A stretch of DNA of 64,000 nt from Phycisphaeraceae bacterium (GTDB lineage: Bacteria; Planctomycetota; Phycisphaerae; Phycisphaerales; SM1A02): the NCBI GenBank assembly GCA_015709595.1, contig CP054178.1, positions 744,001 through 808,000 of the forward strand, read 5' to 3'. The notes beneath the pieces are model-generated. The model made no database searches and was not told where the DNA came from. It worked only from the letters and a program-made list of their open reading frames with translations. Both the position numbers and the translations under genes were made by a program. Positions 51,606-60,062 of the stretch are shown piece after piece (the first letter of the stretch is position 1; the number at the start of each line of letters is the position of its first letter).

Positions 51606-52427
51606 GTCGCGGATTGGTCGCGGGCTGAGATCAGGTACACTATGACGGGGCCGGTGTGATCGGTACCGTCGGTCGCGGATTGGTCGCGGGCTGAGATCAG
51701 GTACACTAGGGGGCCCGCCGCGACGGCAGCGTACTCGGTCGCGGATTGGTCGCGGGCTGAGATCAGGTACACTTCAATCAGTGCGCCGATCACGACCACC
51801 CAGTCGCGGATTGGTCGCGGGCTGAGATCAGGTACACTTAGCAGTCGGTGGCAGACTTGCCGATACCAGTCGCGGATTGGTCGCGGGCTGAGATCAGGTA
51901 CACTTGGTACAACGCCAAAGCCGCACCGCACATGTCGCGGATTGGTCGCGGGCTGAGATCAGGTACACTGTCAAGAAGACGGGCGGGCGATCGGTGACGT
52001 CGCGGATTGGTCGCGGGCTGAGATCAGGTACACTCGAGGCGGTCCGGGCTGTCATCAACGACGTGTCGCGGATTGGTCGCGGGCTGAGATCAGGTACACT
52101 TCTCTGGATGCCATGATTGCCTCCGGACAGTCGCGGATTGGTCGCGGGCTGAGATCAGGTACACTTCCAGCACGCACGATTCCTTCACGACATTGTCGCG
52201 GATTGGTCGCGGGCTGAGATCAGGTACACTGCGGAATCGGTTGACCCCATCCTCGAACTTGTCGCGGATTGGTCGCGGGCTGAGATCAGGTACACTCGTA
52301 CCACTCATCGGGAATCTTCCAGCCCCGTCGCGGATTGGTCGCGGGCTGAGATCAGGTACACTCCAGCAAGACACAGCCGGCGCTTCCGCCTGTCGCGGAT
52401 TGGTCGCGGGCTGAGATCAGGTACACT
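51606..52427 (+). CRISPR. Type II-C CRISPR array, 13 repeats and 12 spacers
   Basis: Thirteen identical 36-nt repeats beginning GTCGCGGATTGGTCGCGGGC and ending TGAGATCAGGTACACT, with spacers of 29 or 30 nt (repeat starts 51606, 51672, 51738, 51803, 51869, 51934, 51999, 52065, 52130, 52195, 52261, 52327, 52392). No degenerate terminal repeat is seen. Matching to the tracrRNA shows that crRNAs are read on the plus strand, toward the cas genes, as in Neisseria. Each repeat contains TTGGTC and TACACT separated by 16 nt, so each may start its own transcript about 7 nt into the following spacer. Confidence 0.98.
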
Positions 52428-52476: not shown

Positions 52477-52806
52477 CTAGAAAAGTTCCAGCTGCTTCGG
52501 GGCCTGTTCGGGGGCGGTGCGCCGTTTTCCCCAGAAAACACGCATCCGCTCGAACTGCTTGTCCGTGATTGTGATGATGCGGACCTCGCCGTCCGGCGGG
52601 ATGTGTTTCTGCACCCGCTGGATGTGGACATCGGCGTTCTCCTCACTGGCGCAGTGGCGGATATACACTGAAAACTGCATCTTGGCGAAGCCGTCCTGCA
52701 GCAGGAACTTCCGAAACAGGGCGTACTGGCGGCGGGCCGCCTTGGTATCCACCGGAAGATCGAACATCGTCACAACCCACATGCAGCGGTACCCACTGAC
52801 GATCAT
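52477..52806 (-). CDS. cas2: CRISPR-associated endonuclease Cas2
   Basis: A protein of 109 residues. GYRCMWVVTMFDLPVDTKAARRQYALFRKFLLQDGFAKMQFSVYIRHC has the Cas2 ferredoxin-like start with the conserved Asp in MFDLP. The C-terminus (VRIITITDKQFERMRVFWGKRR) is typical of type II-C Cas2. With Cas1 it forms the spacer integrase. ATG 52806 overlaps the cas1 stop (ATGA), so the two are co-translated. It ends 50 nt from the array. Confidence 0.96.
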   Translation of the reverse strand: MIVSGYRCMWVVTMFDLPVDTKAARRQYALFRKFLLQDGFAKMQFSVYIRHCASEENADVHIQRVQKHIPPDGEVRIITITDKQFERMRVFWGKRRTAPEQAPKQLELF

Positions 52807-53789
52807 GGCGCCTCGCCCCCCTCGATCGGCGGCAGCATCGGCACGCATAGCCCGTCCGTCACGTCACGGAGGCACTTGAGGAACGACACGACCATTCGCT
52901 GGACGGCGACCATGAGCGGTCCGGTTTCACCCCCCGTGGCGACCGGCTCACCCAGCACCTGCAGGATGCCCGCCTTGGTGGGCTGGTTGAGTTCGCGGCG
53001 GGCGTGGATCACATACAACTGACGGACCCGGCGATCGACGATCGGCCGCAGCGGCTCCACCAGGTCATCCGCCAGGCAGAAGGGGTTGGAGCGGCTGGAG
53101 TGGTGGATGCCGATGGCGGGCAGCAGCCCGGCCCCGATGATCGCCCGCGCCACGCTGGCCCGCAATACCGCGTAGCCGTAGTTCAGCATCACGTTGAGCG
53201 GGTCGGTCCCGTCAGGGTCGCGCCGGAATCGTTGGGCGTCCATCCCCGTCGGCTGACACTTCTCCGTCTTGCGGGCGACGCCCTCGATCGCCTCCGCCGC
53301 CAGCCAGGCGGACCAGTAGACCTTGGCCGCCTGGGCCTCCATGTTGGTCGGGTCGCCCGAGCGCACGTCGCGGGCCATTTCCAACAGGCGCGAGCGCGTA
53401 TCACCACGCGGGAGATTCCCGGCCTGGGCGCGAATCTTGGCCTGCACGATCTGCCGCCAGAGTTGCTTTCGCAACGGACGGGAGACGCCCAGCTGGTCGT
53501 TGATTCGCCAGACGACCTCGTTGTGATCCGCCAGCGGCAGCAGCACCGCCGCGGGCAGGTGATCCCGGCCGCACACCACGAGAACGCCGCCATGCTCCGC
53601 GATGCGAGCCAGGGCATGATGCGAATAGGTGCACTGGCTGTGATCGACCACCAGGATGCCCAGGTCTTCACAGGGGATCGAGCTTGTCCCGACGCCCTCG
53701 GGGACATCGTGCGGCTGGATGAGCAACTGGTCGAGGCGAACCGACAGGTGGGCTGGCTTCTGGGAAATCTCAACGGTGCGCTTGATCAT
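52803..53789 (-). CDS. cas1: CRISPR-associated integrase Cas1 (type II)
   Basis: A protein of 328 residues that catalyses spacer acquisition with Cas2. MIKRTVEISQKPAHLSVR starts the N-terminal beta domain. NVMLNYGYAVLRASVARAIIGAGLLPAIGIHHSSRSNPFCLADDLVEPLRPIVDR carries the conserved Glu/His/Asp-type metal site region (the His in GIHH and the Asp in LADDLVE). It lies 86 nt after cas9. ATG 53789 is chosen because an in-frame start 15 residues upstream adds only a basic leader not seen in the family. Confidence 0.97.
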   Translation of the reverse strand: MIKRTVEISQKPAHLSVRLDQLLIQPHDVPEGVGTSSIPCEDLGILVVDHSQCTYSHHALARIAEHGGVLVVCGRDHLPAAVLLPLADHNEVVWRINDQLGVSRPLRKQLWRQIVQAKIRAQAGNLPRGDTRSRLLEMARDVRSGDPTNMEAQAAKVYWSAWLAAEAIEGVARKTEKCQPTGMDAQRFRRDPDGTDPLNVMLNYGYAVLRASVARAIIGAGLLPAIGIHHSSRSNPFCLADDLVEPLRPIVDRRVRQLYVIHARRELNQPTKAGILQVLGEPVATGGETGPLMVAVQRMVVSFLKCLRDVTDGLCVPMLPPIEGGEAP

Positions 53790-53875
53790 GACCGACCCCC
53801 GGAACCGCGCGCGACAGCCGCACTGGCGCGTCATCGGCGACTGGCGAGGCGGACTTGAGCGAGTTCAGGTGCGGA

Positions 53876-56993: not shown

Positions 56994-57081
56994 TGCGGAT
57001 GGCGGGACTCGAACCCGCAAAAACCTTTGGGAGGTAAGCGGTTTTGGAAACCGCCGCGTTTTCCAGTTTCGCCACACCCGC
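56994..57081 (-). tRNA. Type II (long variable arm) Leu-like tRNA with anticodon CCA
   Basis: An 88-nt cloverleaf: acceptor GCGGGTG/CATCCGC, short D arm GCG/CGC with GG in the loop, anticodon stem GCGGT/ACCGC with loop TTCCAAA (anticodon CCA, reading UGG), long variable arm about TTACCTCCCAAAGGTTTTT, and T arm GCGGG-TTCGAGT-CCCGC. The D region (TGGCGAAACTGGAAAACGC), the long arm and the A73 discriminator are leucine-type features, yet the anticodon is that of tryptophan. No CCA is encoded. It lies between the predicted promoter and cas9. Confidence 0.75.
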
Positions 57082-57123
57082 ATCCATGCTGCGGAGCCCG
57101 ATGGGCTTCGCAGTGGCGAGCTG

Positions 57124-57151
57124 ATTTTACCCTCCACGGCTTGCCTGTCAA
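57124..57151 (-). promoter_or_regulatory. Predicted promoter of the tRNA-cas9-cas1-cas2 operon
   Basis: Minus strand TTGACA (57151-57146), a 16-nt spacer GGCAAGCCGTGGAGGG, and TAAAAT (57129-57124). The tRNA begins about 42 nt after the -10 box. The first 12 nt of the spacer (57145-57134) are identical to the 12 nt directly preceding the degenerate repeat at 57249. Confidence 0.7.
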
Positions 57152-57218
57152 CGACATGCCTGTTATTCTTCGTCATGGCCCTATGGCCTGAATCACGCCC
57201 AGCGCCGACGATGTCGCA

Positions 57219-57284
57219 ACGAAACGACGAGTCGACGGCAAGCCGTGGGTCGCGGATTGGTCGGGGGCTGAGATCGGGTGCTAT
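57219..57284 (+). ncRNA. Candidate autoregulatory guide RNA (solitary degenerate CRISPR repeat plus guide)
   Basis: 57249-57284 is a degenerate copy of the array repeat (begins GTCGCGGATTGGTCGGGGGC, ends GAGATCGGGTGCTAT), same strand as the array repeats. The 30 nt before it occupy the place of a spacer and end in GGCAAGCCGTGG (57237-57248), an exact match to the cas9 promoter spacer on the opposite strand. A weak promoter TTGCCT-N17-TATTCT (57142-57147, 57165-57170 approximately) could drive it. It resembles scaRNA or the long tracrRNA in concept; unproven. Confidence 0.5.
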
Positions 57285-57321: not shown

Positions 57322-57349
57322 TTGACGGGAGGTGTGCATCGGGGATAAT
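57322..57349 (+). promoter_or_regulatory. tracrRNA promoter
   Basis: TTGACG (57322-57327), a 16-nt spacer, GATAAT (57344-57349). The expected start, about 57355, coincides with the first base of the anti-repeat. Confidence 0.75.
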
Positions 57350-57354
57350 GCAAA

Positions 57355-57463
57355 GTACCTGTTCTCAGCCCGCGAATGCTTTTCGCGACAAGAAGAAACA
57401 TTCGCAGGCAACAGCCCTACGGGGCTGCCGACCGCAATGCCTAACGGCAGGGCGGTCTTTTTC
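57355..57463 (+). ncRNA. tracrRNA
   Basis: About 109 nt. The anti-repeat GTACCTGTTCTCAGCCCGCG (from 57355) matches the reverse complement of the array repeat at all but one of the first 21 positions. TTTTCGCGAC further on pairs with the repeat 5' end, leaving a bulge. After an A-rich linker come a hairpin around CAGCCC-TAC-GGGGCTG (57412-57427) and a terminator stem ACCGC..TGCC-TAAC-GGCA..GCGGT (57431-57456) followed by CTTTTTCTT. It pairs with crRNA for Cas9 loading. Confidence 0.88.
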
Positions 57464-57542
57464 TTGGAAGCATCTGGTGGTCAGGGCAGCAACTCCCCCT
57501 TGTTCGCCCGGCATTTCCACTGCATCGGGATGGGCTACACTG

Positions 57543-57731
57543 ATGAAAGTCAAGGATGCGATTCGACTCATCGAGCAGGAGGGCTGGCGGCTGCATCGGA
57601 CGCGGGGCAGCCATCATCAGTTCAAACACCCGACGCGGCCGGGCAAGGTCACGGTGCCCGGCAACCTGAACGATGATCTGTCGCCGGGGACATGGAACAG
57701 CATCCGCAAGCAGGCGGGACTCGCCAGGTGA
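57543..57731 (+). CDS. hicA: HicA-type toxin (mRNA interferase)
   Basis: A protein of 62 residues with the dsRBD-like HicA fold: MKVKDAIRLIEQEGWRLHRTRGSHHQFKHP contains the catalytic His in GSHHQF, then TRPGKVTVPGN and WNSIRKQAGL. HicA cleaves mRNA. It precedes hicB by 5 nt. On a mobile element the pair is likely to act as an addiction module. The start is the only ATG that fits family length. Confidence 0.93.
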   Translation: MKVKDAIRLIEQEGWRLHRTRGSHHQFKHPTRPGKVTVPGNLNDDLSPGTWNSIRKQAGLAR

Positions 57732-57736
57732 TCGCC

Positions 57737-57970
57737 ATGAAGAAGCACGAGTTGACCTATGCCGTCGTGATCGAGAATGCGGGGGCGAACTTCAGCGCCT
57801 ACGTGCCGGACCTTCCCGGCTGCGTGTCCACCGGCAGGACGGTCGATGAGACCCTGCGGAACATCCGGGAGGCGATCGAGTTCCACCTGGAAGGGCTCCT
57901 GGAGGATGGCGACCCGATCCCGAGGCCGACCGCGATCGGACGTGAAGTTCACATTCAGATCGCGGCCTGA
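57737..57970 (+). CDS. hicB: HicB-type antitoxin
   Basis: A protein of 77 residues (MKKHELTYAVVIENAGANFSAYVPDLPGCVSTGRTVDE, REAIEFHLEGLLEDGDPIPRP), the RNase H-like HicB partner that neutralises HicA. No C-terminal DNA-binding domain is present, so autoregulation may depend on another protein such as the ribbon-helix-helix protein encoded downstream. It starts 5 nt after hicA. Confidence 0.93.
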   Translation: MKKHELTYAVVIENAGANFSAYVPDLPGCVSTGRTVDETLRNIREAIEFHLEGLLEDGDPIPRPTAIGREVHIQIAA

Positions 57971-58028: not shown

Positions 58029-58058
58029 TTGACACAATGGTATGATATGGTGTATGCT
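58029..58058 (+). promoter_or_regulatory. Promoter with TGGTATG-type direct repeats before the RHH gene
   Basis: TTGACA (58029-58034), an 18-nt spacer and TATGCT (58053-58058). The spacer and start carry TGGTATGATA, TGGTGTATGC and TGGTAGC in tandem, a plausible ribbon-helix-helix operator. ATG follows 9 nt after the -10 box. Confidence 0.6.
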
Positions 58059-58067
58059 GGTAGCACC

Positions 58068-58430
58068 ATGGCCCGAAAGACCGCCATCAACATCACCATC
58101 GACGCCGATCTCCTCAAGCGGATCGACGATGCCGCGGACAAGCGCGGCGACTCGCGCTCCGCGATCATCGAGCGGTTCTGCCGCAATGAGATCGGACAGG
58201 AGGAGGAGTTCCTCCACGAACTCGAAAGTCCGGTCTTCCGGGCCATCTATGACGCCATGTCGAAGCGTCCCGAGATCATCCGCGCAATCTCGGCGGTGAT
58301 GGGCGAGCATATCGACCTGACTGCGGCGAGGGCCAAGGCGGAGCGGCTGCGTGAACAGACGCGGCGAGGCAAGGCGAGGCAGCACAACAAGGGCGGCGAA
58401 GCGGATGGCGTTCATCCGAAGCCCGCCTGA
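58068..58430 (+). CDS. Ribbon-helix-helix DNA-binding protein
   Basis: A protein of 120 residues. TAINITIDADLLKRIDDAADKRGDSRSAIIERFCR is a CopG/Arc-type ribbon-helix-helix domain (residues 4-38). The middle is helical (FRAIYDAMSKRPEIIRAISAVM) and the C-terminus is basic and disordered-looking. Direct repeats overlap its promoter, so it probably represses itself and perhaps the xis-int genes that follow. It could be the switch that controls excision of the element. Confidence 0.85.
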   Translation: MARKTAINITIDADLLKRIDDAADKRGDSRSAIIERFCRNEIGQEEEFLHELESPVFRAIYDAMSKRPEIIRAISAVMGEHIDLTAARAKAERLREQTRRGKARQHNKGGEADGVHPKPA

Positions 58431-58459: not shown

Positions 58460-58660
58460 ATGGACGACAGACCACATCTTGATCTTCTTCTTTCCGTGCG
58501 ACAGGTGGCGAAGTCATTGGGTATCTGCGCCCGGGGGGTATGGCGGCTGGTTGCGCAGTGCAAGTTTTCGAAGCCGGTCTACGTCGGTCGGTGCGCGCGA
58601 TGGCCGCAATCCGAGGTCACGGCGTACATCGAGCGATTGAAGGAGGAGCGTCGATCATGA
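58460..58660 (+). CDS. Excisionase-like helix-turn-helix protein
   Basis: A protein of 66 residues: LLSVRQVAKSLGICARGVWRLVAQCKFSKPVYVGRCARWPQSEVTAYIERL matches the AlpA/HTH_17 pattern of MerR-like winged helices in recombination directionality factors. It would bend DNA at the attachment site and favour excision by the integrase. Its TGA overlaps the integrase ATG (ATGA), so the two are co-translated. Confidence 0.85.
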   Translation: MDDRPHLDLLLSVRQVAKSLGICARGVWRLVAQCKFSKPVYVGRCARWPQSEVTAYIERLKEERRS

Positions 58661-60027
58661 TCGAGTACGTCTACGTTCCCAGGCGGCGCGGCAAGCGGGC
58701 GTCGAGATCGCGTGAGAACTACCGCGGTCGATTCAAGCTGCCCGGCATGGTGAAGCTGGATGACGTCGCGCTGCATACGACGGATCGGCGGATCGCCGAG
58801 GCCCGTCTGCGGGAGATCGTGGTCGAGAAAGAACGCGAGCTGGCGGGCATTCTCGCCCCCAGAGTCCAACGCGATGCCGCCGCACGTCCGCTGGTGGATC
58901 ACCTGGATGACTTCATCGCGGACGTGAAGGCGCGCAGGCGCTCGAAGGAGTACTTCGAGCCCGTCAAGTGGCGCATCCGGCGGCTGATGAAGGAGTGCGG
59001 CTGGTCTCTGCTTCGGGATGTCTCGGCCGAGTCCTTCATCGCCTGGCGAAGCCGCCAGGGCGACACGATGAGCGCCAAGACCCTCAACGAGTACCTGAGC
59101 GCGGCGCGTGGGCTTCTTGGTTGGCTGCACCGACAGGGGAAGATCGCGGGCAATCCGTTGACGTCGGTCGAGCGGGTTCAGACCGCGGGACGTGAGCGCC
59201 GGAAACGTCGCGCCCTGACGGTGGATGAATGCGTGCGGCTGCTCGCCGTGGCTGGCCCCCGTCGCACGGCATACCTGGCGGCGCTTGTGACCGGCCTGCG
59301 CCGGAGCGAGTTGGAGGCGCTGGAGTGGGGCGATGTGCATCTGGACTCGCCGTCGCCATTCCTCGATGTCCGTGCATCGACGACGAAGAACGCCAGGCGG
59401 GCGGCCATCGCCATTCGCGATGATCTGGCGGAAGCGCTGCGAGCCATCAGGCCCGCCGATGCCGCTTCGTCCGATCGTGTATTCCCGCGCGGCGTGCCTT
59501 CCGTGGCGGAACTGCACGCCGACTGCACGGCGGCGGAGATTCCGATTCAGGATGGTGATCGGGGGTCGGTGGATTTCCACGCCTTGCGCCACACCTTCGG
59601 CACGAACCTGAGCCGGGCCAAGGTCGGACCTCGGGTGGCGATGGCCGCCATGCGTCACAGCGACATGAAGCTGACGATGCGGACGTACACCGATGCCGAC
59701 CTGCTGCCGGTGACGGATGCAATCGAGCGGCTGCCTCGGTTCGACGCGATGATCGATTCGGAGCTGCGGGCAACCGGGACGGACGGGGCTGACGCGCCCG
59801 AAATGCGCTCACAAATGCGCTCACTTCCGAGGGTCGCGGGTGGTCGTTGGATGTCGCCGACTGACGCTGACGCTTCACTGTCGAACAGCGCGAAAGTGCC
59901 TGAAAACAGGCACCAAACGCACGCGAAGTCATCGAGTGACGCGATCCGTCACAACGCCCCGTCAACGGGAGTGGATGGGAATCGAACCCACCCGGGACCG
60001 GCTGAACCAGCCCCACACCGGGTTTGA
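58657..60027 (+). CDS. Tyrosine integrase reading through its attachment site
   Basis: A protein of 456 residues in the integrated state. The N-terminal SAM-like core-binding region is at about 85-190. Catalytic residues are Arg215 (GLRRSEL), His308 and Arg311 (HALRHTF), His334 (RHSDMKLT) and Tyr344 (TYTDADL), followed by an unusually long tail of over 110 residues. The frame enters the 32-bp repeat at residues 436-446 and the last 10 residues are encoded by host selC sequence, antisense to the tRNA. In the circular form residue 446 would continue into the 66-residue segment at 49923-50123, giving 512 residues. It is preceded by the excisionase-like gene with AGGAGGAG before the ATG. Confidence 0.93.
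   Translation: MIEYVYVPRRRGKRASRSRENYRGRFKLPGMVKLDDVALHTTDRRIAEARLREIVVEKERELAGILAPRVQRDAAARPLVDHLDDFIADVKARRRSKEYFEPVKWRIRRLMKECGWSLLRDVSAESFIAWRSRQGDTMSAKTLNEYLSAARGLLGWLHRQGKIAGNPLTSVERVQTAGRERRKRRALTVDECVRLLAVAGPRRTAYLAALVTGLRRSELEALEWGDVHLDSPSPFLDVRASTTKNARRAAIAIRDDLAEALRAIRPADAASSDRVFPRGVPSVAELHADCTAAEIPIQDGDRGSVDFHALRHTFGTNLSRAKVGPRVAMAAMRHSDMKLTMRTYTDADLLPVTDAIERLPRFDAMIDSELRATGTDGADAPEMRSQMRSLPRVAGGRWMSPTDADASLSNSAKVPENRHQTHAKSSSDAIRHNAPSTGVDGNRTHPGPAEPAPHRV
59963..59994. repeat. Right 32-bp attachment repeat within selC
   Basis: Identical to 49891-49922. It covers the T-arm 3' half and acceptor 3' strand of tRNA-Sec plus 3 nt beyond, the usual site used by tyrosine integrases. Confidence 0.92.
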
Positions 60028-60062
60028 AGCCCGTGGCCGCCACCAGGCGTGCTGACACTCCC
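59966..60062 (-). tRNA. selC: tRNA-Sec(TCA)
   Basis: A 97-nt minus-strand gene with acceptor GGGAGTG/CACTCCC, anticodon loop CTTCAAA in the stem GGG/CCC (anticodon TCA), long variable arm, T loop TTCGATT and discriminator G. Its presence implies selenocysteine use in this organism. The gene remains intact although the element is inserted at its 3' end. Confidence 0.9.

Follow-up and report, generated by a model that had tools for sequence, protein, structure and literature searches.

Why should a type II-C CRISPR (clustered regularly interspaced short palindromic repeats) locus carry, outside its array and upstream of cas9, a solitary degenerate repeat whose adjoining nucleotides recur in the promoter region ahead of cas9? 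The locus lies in a 64-kb stretch of DNA (hereafter the window, meaning the whole stretch that was analysed; contig CP054178.1, positions 744,001 to 808,000) from a Phycisphaeraceae bacterium whose 3.84-Mb genome is a single contig and 99 % complete. A first-pass annotation of the window had proposed that Cas9 represses its own operon by means of a separate CRISPR RNA (crRNA)-like RNA paired to an ordinary trans-activating CRISPR RNA (tracrRNA). We consider it likely that the degenerate repeat belongs to a Cas9-dependent, guide-controlled module, a type II-C counterpart working like the CRISPR-regulated toxin-antitoxin RNA pairs (CreTA) and cas-regulating RNAs (CreR) of other CRISPR types, with repression and toxicity as its predicted actions. 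The elements concerned are as follows, with positions in nucleotides (nt) of the window.

57225 to 57248, plus strand: guide, 24 nt counted back from the degenerate repeat, with its seed GGCAAGCCGTGG at 57237-57248
57249 to 57284, plus strand: ectopic degenerate CRISPR repeat (hereafter psi-repeat), identical to the array repeat at 31/36 positions
57124 to 57151, minus strand: promoter-like sequence of the tRNA-like gene and probably of cas9 too, TTGACA-16-TAAAAT, 11/12 of the consensus
57134 to 57145, minus strand: target of the guide seed, between the -35 and -10 elements of the tRNA/cas9 promoter
57126 to 57133, minus strand: flank on the side of the protospacer-adjacent motif (PAM), AGGGTAAA, which agrees with the flank common to 13 loci (purines in second and third place, T or A in fifth) except for G at position 4, where 9/13 loci have A
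56994 to 57081, minus strand: tRNA-like gene with a tRNA-Leu body, A73, a long variable arm and the anticodon CCA (Trp; ARAGORN); 55.9 bits against RF00005
53876 to 56938, minus strand: cas9, 1020 aa, in type II-C arrangement, with Pfam HNH_4, RuvC_III and Cas9_a
57354 to 57470, plus strand (approximate ends): tracrRNA, with the anti-repeat from 57354 and, near 57430-57465, a T-run and terminator hairpin
57322 to 57349, plus strand: promoter-like sequence of the tracrRNA, TTGACG-16-GATAAT, 10/12, sitting between the psi-repeat and the anti-repeat

The coordinates given in the first-pass annotation for the psi-repeat, the guide seed and the promoter match all hold. The 12-nt identity between 57237-57248 (plus strand) and 57145-57134 (minus strand) after the -35 box is exact and is the sole such pair in the window; the imperfect extension with an inserted base is present as described (GTCGAC-GGC in the guide, GTTGACAGGC in the promoter), as is the PAM-side flank. 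The target begins directly 3' of TTGACA (57151-57146) and lies ahead of TAAAAT (57129-57124). No further copy of GGCAAGCCGTGG with 0 or 1 mismatch was found in the 64-kb window, for which dinucleotide shuffles give 0.04 matches expected by chance; two matches occurred in 0/100 shuffles. The seed 12-mer occurs five times in the genome, at the guide, at the tRNA/cas9 promoter and at three places that lie within open frames of 150 aa or more, against one occurrence of a reversed-pattern control; other genomic targets of the seed were rejected, as the three extra 12-mers all fall within long open frames. The computed duplex energy of psi-repeat and anti-repeat is -52.5 kcal/mol, compared with -55.7 kcal/mol for the array repeat, and the psi-repeat can thus pair with the anti-repeat almost as well as the array repeat can.

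We gathered Cas9 loci from whole-genome searches, from 84,980 named genomes, scanned once with the best 80 of 401 relatives retained, and from viral contigs, and all counts given below describe the loci sampled in this way. In a first scan for psi-repeats, which took the best antisense match to the locus's own repeat (or to pooled repeats where there is no array) within 1.5 kb upstream of cas9, three of 103 loci with less than 60 nt upstream were skipped and 100 were scored. The scores are bimodal, with 12 loci at 27-34/36 and the other 88 at 22/36 or less. A thirteenth psi locus, L195 (such handles denote individual Cas9 loci), carries its psi-repeat on the cas9 strand and about 1 nt shorter, and was recognised by eye and by gapped scans of the 112 of 120 loci that have at least 250 nt upstream; these scans found no psi locus beyond the 13. 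The 112 rows include at least two duplicate pairs between collections (L142/L204 and L198/L211). A stricter gapped scan listed 11 of the 13, with L138 and L168 below its repeat-start criterion and L125 shifted. The locus with the nearest Cas9 (L124, 62 %) stands outside the comparison because its upstream region ends at the contig end. L139, a sister of L138 and L149, lacks a psi-guide close to cas9; its cas9-upstream region has two anti-repeats, at about -816 and -103, and an ectopic repeat stands towards the distal end of the array (+6803).

Do guide and promoter change together among these loci? This check, which the first-pass annotation had named, was largely passed: guides differ by locus, and nearly all match their own cas9-upstream region. 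In a swapped-guide control, a locus's own guide scored above all 11 swapped guides in 11/12 loci. The exact seeds of the 12 own pairs are 12, 9, 12, 11, 7, 8, 13, 5, 12, 5, 10 and 5 nt long, so that seven pairs reach 9-13 nt, compared with a maximum of 7 nt among 132 swapped pairs. The 14-nt match of L195 was found after this control and is not part of it. Wherever the seed is exact, the seed end of the match borders directly on the repeat. As in two loci discussed below, one-base indels break up the longer match of the window, L125 and L163 (by eye), an interruption that might prevent cutting by an active Cas9. Judged by these sequence comparisons, the guide is real in a comparative sense.

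The PAM-side flanks are alike. All 13 targets have an N-R-R flank, that is, a purine at positions 2 and 3, followed by A at position 4 in 9/13 and by T or A at position 5 in 13/13; two of these flanks (L161 and L158) depend on gapped matches. Purines occupy positions 2 and 3 in 10/10 loci with an exact seed of at least 7 nt (background 0.256 per site, P ~1e-6, assuming independent sites, though promoters are A+T-rich). The array repeats of the window begin GTCG right after each spacer, and the array is therefore without the shared PAM-like flank. The position of the target also recurs: a promoter-like sequence in the cas9 direction overlaps or adjoins it in 10/13 loci at 8/12 or better, and in 7/13 at 9/12 or better. 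The target lies between the -35 and -10 elements in the window, L149 and L138, covers the -10 in L125 and the -35 in L128, and is found just upstream of the -35 in L137 and L163 and near the start site in L168.

What such a guide would control is indicated by the genes between target and cas9. Among the 13 psi loci, this cargo is a tRNA-like gene in seven (the window, L125, L137, L156, L163, L166 and L168) and a small open reading frame (ORF) in two (L128 and L195); two have cas9 alone (L149 and L138) and two have no recognised gene (L161 and L158). The ORF of L128 encodes a YjzC-like protein of 73 aa (Pfam PF14168), 308-86 nt upstream of cas9, and is followed by a terminator-like hairpin (by eye); that of L195, lying 269-119 nt upstream of cas9, encodes 49 aa that begin with a hydrophobic stretch (by eye) and have no Pfam match. 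Both are the apparent cargo of their loci. ARAGORN predicted a tRNA within 700 nt upstream in 5/13 psi loci (seven with L156 and L163), compared with 2/99 non-psi loci, both of them ordinary tRNA-Gly genes outside the tracrRNA. Five of the tRNA-like genes pass the Rfam tRNA threshold, L163 scores 21.3 bits against the required 29, and L156 matches the model of the tRNA-like mascRNA below threshold.

In the tRNA-like gene of the window the acceptor, D, anticodon and T arms are intact and paired (tRNA model). Its body is nearest to host tRNA-Leu, 7/7 fetched matches of the same family are tRNA-Leu(CAA), and the host carries a separate normal tRNA-Trp. A Leu-like body is combined with a Ser anticodon in L125, and Ala-like bodies with G3:U70 carry Arg and Ile anticodons in L137 and L166, respectively. 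L168 is a class II tRNA with an Asp anticodon; L156 has G3:U70 with an uncertain anticodon, and its whole body is not nearest to Ala. All 7/7 genes, with ends set by hand, have A73 and an acceptor stem of seven pairs. Among the 46 host tRNAs, G3:U70 with A73 is confined to the three Ala; A73 is also found in the five Leu, and G73 in the four Ser. Alanyl-tRNA synthetase recognises G3:U70, leucyl-tRNA synthetase (LeuRS) recognises A73 and the tRNA body, and the anticodon is read by neither. Leu and Ala bodies would thus still be charged after an anticodon swap, the property that a missense tRNA requires. Identity elements (their roles taken from general background) are combined with a foreign anticodon in the window, L125, L137 and L166, and these four tRNAs look like candidate missense-tRNA toxins, for which mistranslation is a plausible poison. 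This mismatch of body and anticodon is absent from the first-pass annotation.

The proposed module is built on four observations, namely guide-target co-variation, a shared PAM-like flank, a recurring position and the mismatch between tRNA body and anticodon. On sequence comparison, Cas9 loci, mostly from planctomycetes, repeatedly carry guide-marked cargo, which is tRNA-like in 7/13 and a re-coded tRNA in the clear cases. The different guide-cargo pairs that occupy this position in other bacteria suggest that a poison gene, and in some cases cas9 too, is held off by Cas9. In the window, no minus-strand terminator and no second promoter were found between the tRNA-like gene and cas9, so both are probably repressed together, and the window looks like toxin control and cas9 autorepression combined, with a toxin-like tRNA and cas9 under one promoter. 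L149 and L138 look like plain cas9 autorepression. We lean, slightly, towards the more specific reading that these are type II addiction modules in which Cas9 and a crRNA-like antitoxin RNA would silence missense-tRNA toxins (re-coded Leu or Ala bodies), in a module that is exchangeable from locus to locus and varied in its toxins.

Two further elements lie close to the target in the window:

57141 to 57169, plus strand: candidate guide-RNA promoter, TTGCCT-17-TATTCT, 8/12, weak; divergent from the target and overlapping it
57084 to 57116, minus strand: hairpin of -17.6 kcal/mol in the leader, immediately 5' of the tRNA-like gene

Some loci have candidate divergent guide promoters on or adjacent to the target (strong ones in L125 and L166, a weak one in the window), and the guide may thus, speculatively, be self-limiting. 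The leader hairpin is present in 7/7 loci with a tRNA-like gene.

The predicted sequence of events runs from guide transcription through Cas9 binding and repression to charging and toxicity. The psi-repeat RNA would pair with the ordinary tracrRNA and load Cas9, and the 12-nt seed match of the window would be sufficient for binding and too short for cutting. Cas9 sitting on the promoter would block transcription of the chimeric tRNA (Leu body, Trp anticodon) and then of cas9, so that both would be off while Cas9 is plentiful. If Cas9 were lost, inhibited by an anti-CRISPR protein or titrated by many crRNAs, both genes would be released and Cas9 rebuilt; since cas9 can share the toxin promoter, the event that releases the toxin would also remake Cas9. 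The released tRNA would be charged with leucine because LeuRS ignores the anticodon, and would place Leu at Trp codons, by which the cell would be slowed or killed. If this is true, failure of Cas9 leads a cell to mistranslate its own proteome, guide-controlled cargo has a Cas9 case beyond type I, and the targets offer a natural read-out of the PAM of a Cas9 clade that is still uncharacterised; it would likewise supply a reason for the persistence of Cas9 loci and a possible answer to anti-CRISPR proteins.

The distribution of the module is patchy. On a Cas9 tree of 86 rows (identity of at least 36 %, at least 550 aa), the 13 psi rows entail 11 label changes, at least 10 of them forced by well-supported branches, and 82/500 label shuffles gave a number as low as the observed 11. 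On this scatter, gain or loss of the module has occurred many times. In L166, guide, target and tRNA form a block of about 360 nt that is absent from the sister loci L162 and L164, with flanking tracrRNA and cas9 regions that are near-identical; a block difference of the same kind, less clean, separates L163 from the less close L173 and L174. Viral contigs yielded seven Cas9 loci, four long matches at 30-31 % identity and three short ones, and no module was seen in the four long loci with the repeats used, which come from planctomycetes and kin. Phage records searched for Cas9 relatives gave one match at 26 % identity, from which nothing further came.

Several results weigh against the module as proposed. 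In L166 the match is weak (7 nt exact, 9/10) and a swapped guide outscores the own guide, and position 5 of the seed is mismatched in L168. The matches of L161 (score 20) and L158 (14.5) both require an indel of one base towards the PAM side and are direct repeats close to the guide; the cargo of L161 has no Rfam match and that of L158 only a chance-level match to a microRNA, by which search a known RNA family was rejected as the cargo of either. L149 and L138 have no cargo other than cas9. Measured against the host tRNAs of the window, the body of L168 is nearest to Cys, just ahead of Leu, and Tyr comes nearest for L156 and L163 (level with a Leu in L163), both with uncertain anticodons. The promoter scan called no promoter-like sequence at the target in L156, L166 and L161, and the guide promoter candidate of the window is weak at 8/12. 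The leader hairpin is unspecific, as 12/30 host tRNAs have one that equals or exceeds the least stable of the seven in stability, and was dropped as a signature of the module. A test of the PAM by protospacers found none, either in viral contigs, searched with the 3'-terminal 20-21 nt of three window spacers, or with 1002 spacers against all DNA fetched by then.

Could the same observations arise without a toxin, or without a guide? Pure autorepression of cas9, as by CreR or by the long tracrRNA form of Streptococcus pyogenes (tracr-L), would leave the tRNA-like gene as a bystander or as a processing signal of the cas9 mRNA. The window agrees with it, in that a single promoter-like sequence stands ahead of both tRNA and cas9 and no terminator was found to separate the two, as do L149 and L138, in which the guide addresses the promoter of cas9 itself with 13 and 10 nt and there is no cargo; a read-through RNA from psi-repeat to tracrRNA could moreover fold as a single guide. 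We nevertheless regard autorepression alone as unlikely, if still a serious contender, given that the tRNA-like genes occupying this one position in seven loci differ from each other, that all four with a clear body assignment have a foreign anticodon, and that an altered anticodon is needless for a processing signal. In L137 a strong terminator-like hairpin of 19 pairs separates tRNA and cas9, in L128 a small ORF lies between, and in L195 the psi-repeat is on the strand opposite the tracrRNA, which excludes a single RNA of the tracr-L kind at that locus. The proposal that Cas9 represses itself through a separate crRNA-like RNA and ordinary tracrRNA is thus supported in part: co-variation and the pairing of psi-repeat and anti-repeat favour it, and as an account by autorepression alone it is incomplete, because a tRNA-like gene (7/13) or a small ORF (2/13) stands between target and cas9 and because anticodon and body disagree wherever both are assignable.

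The tRNA could instead be an ordinary or decayed gene that a mobile element left behind on integrating at a tRNA site, with cas9 downstream by accident, and an integrase gene (58540-60027) and a tRNA-Sec gene do lie nearby. This appears very improbable, as the nearest host tRNAs have another anticodon, the tRNA-like genes differ in kind between loci, the arms of the window's gene are intact, and tRNA and guide occur together (in the ARAGORN counts and in the L166 block). Scarcely credible is a 12-nt match that arose by chance or as the site of a protein repressor present twice. The 12-mer does contain a near-palindrome, GGCNNGCC (by eye); against this stand the shuffle expectation for 64 kb, the abutment of match and repeat at the seed end in loci with an exact seed and, strongly, the differing sequences of relatives that still match their own upstream regions. 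A chance match was rejected by the swapped-guide control together with the shuffle expectation, and a repressor binding site because the sequence varies by locus while the match persists. The guide-controlled module remains our preferred reading.

How this module relates to known systems can be said as far as the extracts of the cited papers reach. CreTA is a CRISPR-regulated toxin-antitoxin RNA pair of type I (PMC8501985, PMC9458426), with a case in type I-F (PMC10097628); the extract of a December 2025 review describes CreTA as so far clarified only in type I-B and asks about other CRISPR types (PMC12737573). The window shares with CreTA an ectopic degenerate repeat outside the array, a spacer-like sequence that partly matches the promoter of a small RNA gene, and varied cargo. 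Where CreTA, as described there, has Cascade and a toxic RNA whose mini-ORF of rare codons ties up a rare tRNA, the effector here would be Cas9 with tracrRNA, and the cargo is itself tRNA-like, with its anticodon swapped. Since effector and toxin type differ, we do not class the module as CreTA; the mini-ORF criterion may, however, be too narrow, as the CreTA toxins described in these extracts differ among themselves. CreR is a cas-regulating RNA of types I-B, I-E and V-A (PMC13131331, PMC12737573), and a predicted crRNA-like RNA partly matching its own cas promoter is likewise found in the window (where the promoter is shared with the tRNA), L149 and L138, the last two being closest to CreR. 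The type (II-C) and the extra gene or sequence between target and cas9 in most of the 13 loci differ from what the extracts report of CreR. In CrePA, a crRNA-like antitoxin silences a protein gene, CreP typically having a KilA-N domain (PMC12737573); L128 and L195 are comparable as far as the extract goes, but the L128 ORF is YjzC-like and the L195 ORF has no Pfam match.

Among type II systems, tracr-L of S. pyogenes (type II-A) acts as a single guide with an 11-nt match through which Cas9 represses the cas promoter, Pcas (PMC11417352). In the extract of the same work, when an engineered crRNA matching over 11 nt was combined with the short tracrRNA, the Pcas reporter signal was equally low with two S. 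pyogenes Cas9 versions, which supports a dual-RNA architecture. The likeness to tracr-L is a short match that would direct Cas9 to the cas promoter; the differences from the system described in that extract are that a separate repeat-bearing RNA is likely here and that the tracrRNA has a promoter-like sequence of its own. Psi-repeat and tracrRNA of the window are on the same strand, about 70 nt apart, with that promoter-like sequence between them. Francisella scaRNA (type II-B) has a degenerate repeat, depends on tracrRNA and acts by short complementarity, Cas9 repressing transcription (PMC9458426, PMC13431127); all of these features are predicted here, with a cas promoter or toxin-like gene as the target in place of the lipoprotein operon named in the extracts. 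The scaRNA of Neisseria meningitidis (type II-C) is a further non-canonical RNA that a II-C Cas9 binds and differs, according to the extract, in acting on mRNA post-transcriptionally (PMC13431127). Among the matches listed in the open-licence literature, we found no type II CreTA, no missense-tRNA toxin and no report of the present module in planctomycetes.

The remainder of the locus comprises the following features.

52803 to 53834, minus strand: cas1, Pfam Cas_Cas1
52477 to 52848, minus strand: cas2, Pfam CRISPR_Cas2
51606 to 52427, plus strand: CRISPR array of 13 identical 36-nt repeats with spacers of 29-30 nt

With cas9, cas1 and cas2 adjacent, the locus is a type II-C CRISPR-Cas system; neither Csn2 nor Cas4 was found among eight window proteins scanned with Pfam, cas neighbours included. 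The 3' part of each array repeat (51606-52427) is promoter-like (TTGGTC, 16 nt, TACACT; by eye), as in II-C repeats that transcribe themselves. This promoter-like 3' end is degraded in the psi-repeat.

Beyond the tracrRNA gene, a HicA/HicB toxin-antitoxin pair (57543-57970, Pfam) follows directly, and then a ribbon-helix-helix ORF (58029-58430) and the phage-type integrase ORF (58540-60027), the 3' end of which is overlapped by the tRNA-Sec gene (59966-60062, minus strand); this overlap is a possible attachment site of an island. HicA-like ORFs above the Pfam cut-off also lie between tracrRNA and psi-guide in L138, L149 and L158, and HicB-like ORFs in L161 (below the Pfam cut-off) and L158 (by eye, with no Pfam match). 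Together with the pair in the window, these indicate that toxin-antitoxin genes gather at the spot upstream of cas9.
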